From Bacillaceae bacterium (GTDB taxonomy: Bacteria > Bacillota > Bacilli > JACDOE01), in the NCBI GenBank assembly GCA_017656255.1, contig JACDOE010000007.1:62001-126000 (forward strand): a stretch of 64,000 nucleotides of DNA, in the 5' to 3' direction. The notes under the pieces were generated by a model. It had not been told where the DNA came from, did not search any database, and saw only the letters and a list, made by a program, of their open reading frames with translations. Position numbers and translations under genes: made by a program. Positions within the stretch are counted from its first letter, which is position 1. The number at the start of each line of letters is the position of its first letter. Below are positions 9,165 to 15,053 of this stretch, piece after piece.

Positions 9165-10577
9165 TTATCTGTTCGAAAATGGAACATCACCACCGTCATT
9201 CTTCGGATCCTCAAGGCGGTATTTTTTTATTTTCTGATACAGACTGGCCCGGGAAATCCCCAGCTTCCGGGCAGCCGCACTCTTGTTGCCGTACGTCTCC
9301 TTCAGCGCCTGCCGGATCCGTTCCTGTTCCAGCCGTTCTTTTTCACTGTGCAGGGTGTCCAGCTGCAGTGCTTGCCCGGATTCCGGATACAGAAACTCCG
9401 GCACATCCTGCATGGTAATATGCCCGGTATCGCTTAAAATGGTCAATCGCTCAATCACGTTGCGCAACTGGCGGATGTTGCCCGGCCAGTCATAATTCAG
9501 AAACGCAAGCATCACATCGGAATTGAGGATGGGAATCGGCTTTTCGTACTTGTCGGCAAACTCCCGCAGAAACACCTGCACCAGTTCCGGAATATCCTCG
9601 GACCGCTGGCGAAGCGCCGGCAATTTCAGAGAAATCACATTCAGGCGGTAAAACAGGTCTTCACGAAACGCCCCCCGTTGGATTTTCTCCTCCAGGTTCT
9701 GGTTGGTGGCGGCGATGATCCGGACGTTGATCTCACGGGGGGTGGTACCGCCCACCCGGTAGAAAACCTGTTCCTGCAACACCCGAAGCAGCTTCACCTG
9801 CATGTCGAAGGGCAGATCGCCCACCTCATCCAGAAACAGCGTTCCCCCGTCGGCCAGTTCCAGCTTTCCGGCTTTTCCCTTTTTGTTGGCGCCGGTGAAC
9901 GCGCCTTCCTCATAGCCGAACAACTCACTTTCAAACAGCGCTGCGGGAATGGCCCCGCAATTAATCGGCACAAAGGGATGTTCCCGGCGCCGGGAACTTT
10001 TGTGTATCGCCCGCGCAAACACCTCTTTTCCCACGCCGCTTTCTCCGGTGATGAGGATTGTCGCATCGGTTCCCGCTACTTTTTTCGCCATCTCGATGCT
10101 CTGCCGGATGGGTTCACTGTGCCCTTTAATATGAAAAAATGGATCTTCTTCGGCAGCCCCGGTCATCTCTTTTTTCAATTTGTCCAGTTCCATCGACGTC
10201 TCCGAAAGTTCTTCATTCAATCTAACAATCTGGCTGACGTCCTGTTCCAGGGAAATCGCCCCGATCAACTGCCCCTGATCATCATATACTGGAGTAGAAT
10301 TGATGATTACGTGGGTATTGGGCTGCGGCGTATGATACAGGGAAAAAACAGGCTGACGCGTTTTCAGTACTTTGAGCACCATCAGATCCTCTTCCCGGAA
10401 AAATTCCTGGATTTTGCGTCCCAGAATCTTCTGTTGTGGAATGCCGTAATATTTTGCGGCCGCCTCGTTCCACCCGATCACCGTACATTCCGTATCAATC
10501 ATGGTCACCGCATCATGGGTGACATTTAACAGGTAGGCCAGAAATCCCCGTGCATTTGGGTCCGGCATCTGATTCAT
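9165..10577 (-). CDS. PAS-AAA+-Fis sigma-54-dependent activator (RocR-like)
   Basis: 470-residue enhancer-binding protein. A PAS sensor covers residues about 10-120 ([22 protein letters not shown]). The AAA+ domain has Walker A GESGVGKE near 176, the sigma-54 contact loop GAFTGA near 224, Walker B GGTLFLDE and the arginine-finger region [12 protein letters not shown] Fis-type helix-turn-helix ([23 protein letters not shown]) lies near 430. It is transcribed away from fadM-rocA, whose promoter is a -24/-12 type, so it very likely activates them in response to proline or a breakdown product, as RocR does for arginine genes. RBS GGAGGAGG precedes the ATG. Effector unproven. Confidence 0.88.
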
Positions 10578-10796: not shown

Positions 10797-11717
10797 ATGG
10801 AGCAAATATTAAGAAATTTCTTCTTGTTTATGGCGAAAAACCGGACATTGAACCGCGGTGCGAAGAAGTACGGCCTTCGTTTCGGAGCCGGGCGTTTCGT
10901 CGCCGGGGAAACACTTGAATCGGCGCTGTCCGTGATCCGGGAACTGAATCAGCGCGGTATGTCCGTCACCATTGATCGCCTCGGGGAGTTTGTCACCAAT
11001 GAGCAGGAAGCCGTTGAGATGGCTAACCACTGTGTGGAAGCGCTCCACGGGATGGCAGAGGCACAGGTGGACAGTTATCTCTCCCTGAAACTGACCTCCA
11101 TGGGGCTCGACATTTCCCAGGATCTCTGTCTGGACAACATGCGGCGTATACTGAATACCGCCCGTGAATATGGATATTTTGTCCGGATTGACATGGAGGA
11201 TTATGCCCACCTTGAGAGTACACTGGATCTTTATCACCAGTTGCGGGAGGAAGGGTATGACAACGTGGGGCTGGTGATCCAGGCTTACCTGTATCGCAGT
11301 GTCGAAGATGTGGAAGCGCTTTCCAAACTCGGCACCAATCTGCGCCTGGTGAAGGGAGCCTATAAGGAATCTCCGGAAGTAGCCTTCCCGGACAAAAAAG
11401 ATGTGGATGAAAACTTCAAGAAAATCATCGCCATGCAGCTGAAAAGTGGTAATTATGCTGCCGTGGCCACTCATGATGAAGCGATCATCGCCTACACCAA
11501 AAATCTGGTTAAGGAATGGGAAATTCCCCACGACAGGTTTGAATTTCAGATGTTGTTTGGCATTCGCACAGACCTGCAACAGCGGCTGGTTGAGAAAGGA
11601 TACCGCGTCCGCATTTATGTGCCGTACGGGGATGACTGGTATGGCTATTTCATGCGGCGCCTCGCTGAACGGCCGGCCAATGTGGGGTTTGTGCTGAAAG
11701 GCATATTCAAAAAATAG
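10797..11717 (+). CDS. fadM: Proline dehydrogenase
   Basis: FAD-dependent oxidation of L-proline to 1-pyrroline-5-carboxylate, donating electrons to the respiratory chain. The 306-residue single-domain TIM barrel is the monofunctional Gram-positive type (PutB/FadM). The barrel motif RLVKGAYKE lies near 182, [10 protein letters not shown] near 245 and the C-terminal [23 protein letters not shown]-type substrate motif near 275. GTGAGAGGAAG supplies the ribosome site. It is followed 16 nt later by the P5C dehydrogenase, so both steps from proline to glutamate are co-transcribed from the -24/-12 promoter. Confidence 0.93.
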
Positions 11718-11733
11718 AAGGAGGAGGACCATT

Positions 11734-13281
11734 ATGCTGGTAGATTTCAGACCCGAACCTTTTACAAATTTTCAGGACGAAGCTAATCGCAGGGCATTTG
11801 AGGAAGCACTGAAAAATGTGGGCAGTCAACTGGGTAAAGAATATCCGATCGTGATTAACGGAGAACGCATTTTCACCGACAAAAAGATCACGTCGGTCAA
11901 TCCGTCCAAAAAGGATGAAATCATCGGTTATACATCAAAGGCCGATCAAGACCTGGCGGAGAAAGCGATTCACGCCGCCGCTGAAAAATTTGAAGAGTGG
12001 AAAAAGGTACGCCCGGAACAGCGTGCCCGTTATCTGTGGAAAGCTGCGGCGATCATGCGCCGGCGCAAGCATGAATTTTCCGCGTGGCTGGTCCATGAAG
12101 CCGGAAAAAGCTGGGCGGAAGCCGATGCGGATACCGCAGAAGCCATTGACTTTCTCGAATTTTATGGAAGAGAGATGGTGCGTCTGTCCCAGCCCCATCC
12201 GCTGACCCGTCTCCCCGGGGAAGATAATGAAATGTACTATATCCCGCTGGGAGTTACGGTAGTCATTCCGCCGTGGAACTTCCCGCTGGCAATCCTGACC
12301 GGGATGACCAGTGCGGCGGTTGTATCCGGTAATACGGTCGTGTTGAAACCGGCCAGTGCCACCACCGTCATTGCTTCCAAGCTCATGGAATTGATGGAGG
12401 AAGCGGGCGTTCCCGCCGGTGTGATCAATCTGCTTCCGGGAAGCGGCAGCGAAGTGGGAGACTTCCTGGTCGAACATCCGCTGACCCGCATGATCAGCTT
12501 TACCGGATCCCGTGAAGTGGGCCTCCGTATTAATGAGCTGGCGGCAAAACGAAGCGACCAGCAGAAGTGGATCAAGCGCGTGATCGCGGAAATGGGCGGT
12601 AAAGATACCATTATTGTCGATAAAGAAGCGGACCTGGATCTGGCCGCTCAAAATATCATGGCCTCTGCCTTCGGATTCTCCGGCCAGAAATGTTCAGCCT
12701 GCTCCCGGGCTGTGGTGCTGGAAGAGGTTTATGATGAGGTGCTGGAACGGGTCGTCGAAAAGACCAAACAGTTGAAAATCGGCGATGTGCGTGAGCCGTC
12801 CACTTACACCGGACCGGTCATTGACGAAAGTGCCCTGAACAAGATTTTAAACTACATTGAGATTGGTAAAAACGAGGGACGCCTGGTGCTGGGCGGTGAA
12901 AAAGGATCGGATGACGGGTATTATGTCAAACCGACCATTTTTGCCGATGTTGACCCGAAAGCCCGCATCATGCAGGAAGAAATCTTCGGTCCCGTCGTTG
13001 CCTTTACGAAAGCGAAAGATTTTGATCATGCGCTGGAAATCGCCAATAATACCGAGTATGGCCTGACCGGCTCCGTCTTTTCTAAGAACCGGGCCAACCT
13101 GGAGAAAGCCCGGGACGAATTCCATGTCGGTAACCTGTACTTCAACCGCAAGTGTACCGGAGCCATTGTCGGGGCCCATCCGTTTGGCGGATTCAATATG
13201 TCCGGTACCGATTCCAAAGCGGGCGGACGCGATTATCTGCTGCTCTTCACCCAGGCCAAGGCGGTTTCGGAGGTTCTGTAA
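11734..13281 (+). CDS. rocA: L-glutamate gamma-semialdehyde (P5C) dehydrogenase
   Basis: Oxidises glutamate semialdehyde, from 1-pyrroline-5-carboxylate, to glutamate with NAD+. The 515 residues match the RocA/PutC length. ALDH motifs are complete: [10 protein letters not shown] near 172, the Rossmann segment FTGSREVG near 250, the general-base glutamate in AEMGGKD near 285 and the catalytic cysteine in [12 protein letters not shown] near 320. [10 protein letters not shown] and the C-terminal [28 protein letters not shown] are typical of the P5CDH class rather than general aldehyde dehydrogenases. GAAGGAGGAGG provides a strong ribosome site. Also called pruA or putC. Confidence 0.94.
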
Positions 13282-13290
13282 ACTTTTCAA

Positions 13291-13326
13291 CCGGGGGGAT
13301 TCCTTTCGGAGGATCCCCTCTTTTTT
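13291..13326 (+). terminator. Terminator after rocA
   Basis: GGGGGATTCC pairs with GGATCCCC (imperfect) around TTTCGGA, followed by CTTTTTT. Confidence 0.8.
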
Positions 13327-13393
13327 ACCATTGCCATATTCTGAATTTTTGTTTAATTTATAACTAACCCTATTAATAAAGGAGTGTGTTGTC

Positions 13394-13507
13394 ATGGAAC
13401 AGGCCGGTCTGACTCCTGCAACCTGGTTCTGGCTTACAGTGCCGATGCCTCTGTTGATTGTATGGGCAATTGTGACTTATGTCAGAGAAGGGAGGCGGGG
13501 TGAGTAA
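13394..13507 (+). CDS. 37-residue membrane protein coupled to putP
   Basis: ATG 13394, 9 nt after AAAGGAG (13378-13384), opens a 37-codon frame ending at TAA 13505-13507. Its stop overlaps the putP start as TAATG. The product has a short polar head (MEQAGLTPATWF), one hydrophobic helix (WLTVPMPLLIVWAIVTYV) and a basic tail (REGRRGE), so the N terminus should lie outside. Tiny membrane partners encoded just ahead of SSS-family symporters are known (YhdT with PanF is a classical case), so a role in assembly or activity of the symporter is likely but inferred. Confidence 0.78.
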   Translation: MEQAGLTPATWFWLTVPMPLLIVWAIVTYVREGRRGE

Positions 13508-15006
13508 TGAACGCTTCTTATGTGACCTTTGTCTTTTATCTGGTGGTACTGCTGGGAATCGGGCTTTATACGTATCGGATGACCAGCACGCTGTCCGATT
13601 ATGTGCTGGGAGGGCGTAAACTAAATAGCTGGGTGGCCGCTTTATCAGCCCAGGCCAGTGATATGAGCGGCTGGTTGCTGCTGGGATTGCCCGGTGCCGC
13701 CTATGCGTCCGGAATGGGGATGTGGAGCATCTGGATTTCCATCGGACTGGCCACGGGAACGATGTTGAACTGGCAATACGTGGCGAAACGGCTACGGCGT
13801 TATACGGAAATTGCCGGAAATTCAATCACTTTATCCGAATATTTCGAAAACCGTTTTCGGGATCAAAGCGGTATTCTGCGTATTATTTCCGCGATCTTCA
13901 TTTTGATTTTCTTTCTGTTTTATACCGCGTCGGGACTGGTTGCCGGCGGTCTGCTGTTTGAAGGGACTTTTCAGATCGATTATCATACCGCGGTGATCAT
14001 CGGGGCGATTGTCATTATCGGATATACCTTTCTCGGCGGTTTTCTGGCGGTCAGCTGGACTGACTTTCTGCAGGGAGCGCTGATGTTTTTCGCACTTATT
14101 ATTGCGCCGATTATATCCATTAATTATATCGGAGGACTGGACGAGCTGTTTGCACGAATCGCAGCGGCCAACCCCGATCTGTTGAATGTGGCCCGTGATG
14201 TGGAGTTTGCCGATGGTGTCTGGCAATCCACCGGAGCACTCAGTGTGGTGGGGATTATATCCGCGCTGGCCTGGGGGCTGGGTTATTTCGGGCAACCCCA
14301 CATTCTGGCCCGTTTTATGGCCATTCGTTCCGACCGGGATGTGCGGAAATCCCGTCTGATCTCCGTCATCTGGGTGGTGATCACCCTGTACGGTGCCATC
14401 ATGGTGGGATTTGTGGGAATTGCGCTGTTCGGAACGGAACAGCCGCTTGAGAATACAGAGACCGTTTTTATCGAAATGGTTCAGATCATTTTTAATCCCT
14501 GGCTCGCAGGTATCCTACTGGCTGCTGTCCTGTCAGCGATTATGAGTACCATTGACTCACAATTGCTCGTTTCTTCGAGTGCCCTGACTGAGGACTTCTA
14601 CCGGAAATTTATCCGGCGCCATGCCTCCCAGAAAGAACTGGTGTGGACCGGGCGGATTGCGGTGTTGGTGATTGCCCTGATCGCCCTGATGCTGGCCTGG
14701 AATGATGAAAACAAGGTGCTGGATCTGGTGGCTTATGCCTGGGCCGGATTCGGGGCCGCCTTCGGGCCTGCGATTCTCTTCTCGCTCTTCTGGAAACGGA
14801 TGACCGGGGCAGGGGCTCTCGCCGGGATGATCTTCGGGGGATTGACGGTGATTCTGTGGAAATACACAGGTTCCAACCTGTATGAAATCGTCCCCGGGTT
14901 TATCTTTTCCTCCATCGGGATTGTGTTGTTCAGTCTGGTGAGCCCGCGGCCGCCTGCGGAGGTGGAAGCAGAGTTTGAGAGGGCGCAGAAACCGATGGAA
15001 TCTTAA
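13507..15006 (+). CDS. putP: Sodium/proline symporter
   Basis: Inner-membrane Na+-coupled symporter of the SSS family, 499 residues and about 13 helices. Sodium-site and signature regions are present: SAQASDMSGWLLLGLPG near residue 46, GGFLAVSWTDFLQG near 178, LGYFGQPHILARFMAIRS near 258 and AIMSTIDSQLLVSSSALTED near 340. These match PutP better than pantothenate or acetate symporters. ATG start overlaps the stop of the small gene before it; AGGGAGG lies within that gene. It follows the fadM-rocA operon but behind a terminator, so it probably has its own promoter. It supplies proline for catabolism or osmoprotection. Confidence 0.92.
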   Translation: MNASYVTFVFYLVVLLGIGLYTYRMTSTLSDYVLGGRKLNSWVAALSAQASDMSGWLLLGLPGAAYASGMGMWSIWISIGLATGTMLNWQYVAKRLRRYTEIAGNSITLSEYFENRFRDQSGILRIISAIFILIFFLFYTASGLVAGGLLFEGTFQIDYHTAVIIGAIVIIGYTFLGGFLAVSWTDFLQGALMFFALIIAPIISINYIGGLDELFARIAAANPDLLNVARDVEFADGVWQSTGALSVVGIISALAWGLGYFGQPHILARFMAIRSDRDVRKSRLISVIWVVITLYGAIMVGFVGIALFGTEQPLENTETVFIEMVQIIFNPWLAGILLAAVLSAIMSTIDSQLLVSSSALTEDFYRKFIRRHASQKELVWTGRIAVLVIALIALMLAWNDENKVLDLVAYAWAGFGAAFGPAILFSLFWKRMTGAGALAGMIFGGLTVILWKYTGSNLYEIVPGFIFSSIGIVLFSLVSPRPPAEVEAEFERAQKPMES

Positions 15007-15026
15007 AAGGGAATCGATTAATGATG

Positions 15027-15053
15027 AAAACCGGGATTCGCTCCCGGTTTTTT
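15027..15053 (+). terminator. Terminator after putP
   Basis: AAAACCGGGA pairs with TCCCGGTTTT across a short loop and is followed by T residues. Confidence 0.88.

Follow-up and report, generated by a model that had tools for sequence, protein, structure and literature searches.

Small single-helix partners of membrane transporters are represented by the MetS-type subunits of NSS transporters, in which a short single-helix protein adjoins a LeuT-fold transporter. PutP, a model for the whole sodium/solute symporter family, is treated as a one-chain transporter, and in a 2021 review of prokaryotic SSS transporters (PMC7918813) the words accessory, small protein and subunit are absent. In the window, i.e., the analyzed stretch of 64,000 nucleotides of contig JACDOE010000007.1 from a Bacillaceae bacterium, a gene of 37 codons was found immediately upstream of putP (Table 1). 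The features of the locus and a comparison of related loci show that this is a real gene and make it likely that its single-helix product is co-translated with PutP and serves as a small subunit dedicated to this transporter.

Table 1. Features of the small gene, putP and the neighboring proline genes (window positions).
Feature	Position	Strand	Basis
Proline dehydrogenase gene, upstream of the small gene	10797-11717		
P5C dehydrogenase gene, upstream of the small gene	11734-13281		
Terminator-like hairpin 3' of the P5C dehydrogenase gene, parting that gene from the small gene and putP	13293-13320	+	consensus scan
AAAGGAG, ribosome binding site of the small gene	13378-13384	+	sequence; homologues preceded by similar purine-rich sites
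Small gene encoding a membrane protein of 37 residues with one helix, the proposed small subunit of PutP	13394-13507	+	ORF, homologues, pN/pS 0.20
Purine-rich GAGAAGGGAGG inside the small gene, likely putP ribosome binding site	13485-13495	+	sequence; inferred role
putP, sodium/proline symporter (499 aa); one-base overlap of its start with the small-gene stop	13507-15006	+	NCBIfam TIGR02121, Pfam SSF
Terminator-like hairpin 3' of putP	15026-15052	+	consensus scan

According to the sequence and the list of open reading frames, the small gene starts with ATG at position 13394 and its 37 codons (13394-13504) are followed by the stop codon TAA (13505-13507); the translation is MEQAGLTPATWFWLTVPMPLLIVWAIVTYVREGRRGE. 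The sequence-only reading had ascribed to this frame a ribosome binding site of its own, a single hydrophobic helix and a TAATG junction with the symporter gene, and all three were recovered. The AAAGGAG site is present nine bases ahead of the ATG, the most hydrophobic 19-residue segment (FWLTVPMPLLIVWAIVTYV) has a mean hydropathy of 1.89, and the ATG of putP begins at 13507, on the last base of the TAA. The protein has an acidic start and VREGRR at its end. Because an acidic N-terminus and a basic C-terminus flank a single helix, the positive-inside rule indicates that the topology is probably N-out/C-in.

The putP product was assigned to TIGR02121 with 697.9 bits, above the cut-off of 515.5. 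The genes for proline dehydrogenase and P5C dehydrogenase are located upstream, and thus the small gene stands in a context of proline catabolism. Since terminator-like hairpins were found 3' of the P5C dehydrogenase gene and 3' of putP, the small gene and putP probably form their own two-gene unit. The number of hairpin sites in the region was close to the shuffled mean, which makes the hairpin ahead of the unit weak by itself, but it is located just past the stop codon. No promoter was identified for the two-gene unit. Divergently from the proline dehydrogenase gene, a sigma-54-type activator with, by eye, an AAA+ domain and a Fis-like C-terminus is encoded at 9165-10577 on the minus strand; it is a candidate for regulating the proline genes, comparable to RocR of Bacillus.

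Homologues were searched for in 300 genomes from the class to which the window belongs, using the 37-residue sequence as a single query and then a profile, and in 398 genomes of the phylum using the profile. The single-sequence query gave a clean series of matches in the class genomes, from 8e-15 to about 0.005. After the loci were oriented, all matches of this series and two weaker ones were found immediately 5' of a symporter gene; a purine-rich site precedes them, and they usually overlap the symporter gene by one or four bases. The class profile search revealed 17 strong PutP-type matches (the window's included), all at PutP loci, and five additional ones belonging to a second symporter subfamily; nine more confident matches came from the phylum search, in other families and all ahead of PutP-type genes. 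In both samples, every strong match to the profile was directly followed by a symporter gene of the PutP type or a related one. The earlier suggestion that the layout resembles small accessory subunits of sodium/solute symporters is supported, as every conserved copy lies immediately 5' of a PutP-type gene. Conservation of the frame in orthologous loci, on which the same reading had made its proposal depend, was found in 17 class genomes and in nine more phylum-wide. A profile match at the locus L137 (9e-5) was taken as chance; no symporter gene adjoins it.

The window's genome carries a single copy of the small gene, and the family- and order-level genome searches returned only this genome. 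Caldalkalibacillus mannanilyticus is a close carrier. In one class genome (locus L076, G048:C1), an intact small gene precedes a putP that is interrupted mid-gene by TAG. Neither the plasmid collection nor the PDB sequences gave a homologue of the small protein. A scan of 18 members with Pfam and NCBIfam models gave no relevant match, which fits the expectation that the gene is likely missed in annotations.

The eight closest homologues gave a pN/pS of 0.20 over a core of 24 residues, with 179, 48 and 343 differences at the first, second and third codon positions, respectively. The corresponding values for the other frames were 1.1 and 2.7 on the forward strand and from 0.42 to 3.6 on the reverse strand, and most of these frames contained stops. 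The homologues are 32 to 55 residues long with one helix and share the pattern LPxxTWFW...P...YxxE; T10 and P17 did not vary in an alignment of 21 of them, and F12 and Y29 were almost invariant. Judged by this conservation, the frame of 37 codons is a genuine protein-coding gene. Note that some loci have a gap (18 or 32 bases) instead of the overlap with the symporter gene and the protein is still conserved there, so that the conserved feature is the protein and not the coupling.

The distribution of the small gene follows the relationships of PutP. The small gene accompanies all 13 nearest relatives of the window's PutP in the class genomes (57 to 78% identical); the relatives that follow them are without it, and three carriers were found lower in rank (G048, which is partial, G023 and G042). 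None of the 33 sampled non-carrier PutP, which form one derived clade, is preceded by the gene, and profile matches upstream of them were no better than noise. In the genome G037, which encodes both kinds of PutP, the small gene is located only at the carrier-type copy. A single change between presence and absence was required on the PutP tree, compared with a mean of about 17 with shuffled labels, and the split had a support of 100%. When E. coli PutP and the phylum-wide loci were included, one change was again obtained versus 16 with shuffled labels, with a support of 90/85; E. coli PutP was placed on the non-carrier side, on a long branch. Since one whole PutP clade is without the small protein and E. 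coli PutP groups there, it is not required by all PutP.

The second symporter subfamily (L079, L080, L081, L082 and L116) is about 30% identical to PutP and has its own version of the small protein, MFxLPxETFxxxxPWP, encoded ahead of the symporter; the one member scanned, L079, did not reach NCBIfam equivalog cut-offs. With this subfamily as an outgroup, the carriers were basal and the non-carriers derived. The simplest history suggested by this arrangement is that the small gene was present in early PutP and was then lost once, although the outgroup biases the inference of ancestral presence because it was picked for carrying the small gene. The branch of E. coli PutP has probably lost the small subunit.

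Position 350 of PutP is Asp in all inspected carriers but one and Ser in 32 of the 33 non-carriers and in E. coli PutP; the remaining non-carrier has alanine. The serine and threonine by which E. coli PutP binds sodium are located in the helix segment to which this position belongs. The PutP residues that distinguish carriers from non-carriers have no statistical weight, because all of them reflect one evolutionary change, and the Asp/Ser difference may be a coincidence. Two phylum-level carriers (L133 and L134) have Gly instead of Gln at position 49, as in the non-carrier clade, yet retain Asp350 and the small gene, and for this reason may be placed near the point of loss. It can be tentatively suggested, with rather less than even confidence, that PutP at first consisted of two parts, one of them a single-helix subunit, and that changes in the main subunit made a derived branch, which includes the well-studied E. 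coli PutP, independent of this helix. The replacement of aspartate by serine at position 350 is one candidate for such a change.

In the proposed two-gene unit, the small protein and PutP would be translated together, the coupling giving matching amounts of both. The single helix would be inserted in the membrane with its N-terminus outside and C-terminus inside and, as the most likely mechanism, would pack against the outer surface of the LeuT-fold bundle, in the manner of AcrZ on AcrB. Such a subunit could help PutP to fold, stay stable or work. Translation, membrane insertion, PutP binding and the effect on PutP are all steps that we infer. T10, F12, P17 and Y29 are spread over the length of the helix, a pattern expected of a helix with one face packed on a partner, and this conservation, together with the gene position and the coupling that imply synthesis together with PutP, favors the subunit role. 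It is also supported by the symporter-only linkage, the low pN/pS, the single change on the tree, the version in the second subfamily and the alignment with DUF proteins given below. If PutP does have a conserved partner, the carrier branch calls for study as a complex of two chains, and a comparison of carriers with non-carriers would reveal what such small helices do.

The main rival to the subunit role is a regulatory leader frame, in which translation would count and not the product, either through re-start on putP or through stalling at the prolines of the PMP motif under proline scarcity. The TAATG junction, the location of the putP ribosome site within the small frame and the invariance of P17 in a system whose cargo is proline agree with such a role. 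However, the entire helix is conserved and not the prolines only, and many homologues have S, N, G, L or V in place of the second proline of PMP. Since the protein is kept in the loci where the 18- and 32-base gaps abolish coupling and a relative is found ahead of another symporter subfamily, we consider the leader role unlikely.

The small membrane protein could also accompany putP and have another target, such as the enzymes of proline oxidation, or act as a membrane stress signal, given that gene linkage and a shared phylogenetic distribution are what connect it to PutP. We regard this as very unlikely, as no strong profile match was found away from a symporter gene in the class and phylum samples and the neighbor is always a symporter, the second subfamily included. 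The shortness of the frame would agree with an open frame that arose by chance in front of putP, but matches down to 8e-15 at corresponding positions, the pN/pS of 0.20 and presence throughout a clade leave this explanation a negligible probability. Thus, a dedicated small subunit of PutP is the preferred reading.

Under the product name 'symporter small accessory protein', no papers were found, and the literature on DUF4212, DUF485 and DUF997 contained passing mentions only. In the AcrZ/AcrB pair (PMC7267776), as in the proposed one, a small single-helix protein binds a transporter in the membrane and alters its activity, whereas the transporter is unrelated and the binding of AcrZ is known by structure, that of the small protein to PutP being predicted from gene linkage and shared distribution. 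The small protein is similar to the MetS-type subunits in being a short single helix and differs from them in the transporter family and in the absence of a Pfam match.

DUF997 and DUF4212 are known small partners of other sodium/solute symporters. The proteins DUF997/YhdT (PF06196) are likewise encoded upstream of an SSS gene, and their second helix begins with G-F/L-P-x-W-F; their partners are pantothenate-type SSS symporters. Unlike the small protein, they have two helices and about 80-100 residues. DUF4212 (PF13937) is also encoded immediately upstream of an SSS transporter, and its second helix starts with G-L-P-x-x-F-W-F followed by charged residues, which resembles the small protein; the differences are its length of about 90-100 residues (a profile of 79 positions), its two helices and its different symporter subfamily. 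The window's genome, with eight SSS-domain matches in all, contains one pair of a DUF4212 small protein and an SSS symporter (G000:C1:486070-487779, L124), which is a useful comparison. The Pfam scan of the 18 small-protein members revealed no match above the cut-off for PF13937 or PF06196, and hhalign gave a probability below 5% for both. Profile comparison with the second helix of DUF997 resulted in an E-value of about 0.007 for one pair, with a probability of 2.5%. The alignment of the small protein falls on the second helix of DUF4212 and DUF997 (GLPLSFWF... and GFPAWFFW...) and scored higher than 60 of 60 order-shuffled controls. This likeness is weak but suggestive, and it provides a lead to a possible common origin of the small protein and the second helix of DUF4212/DUF997.
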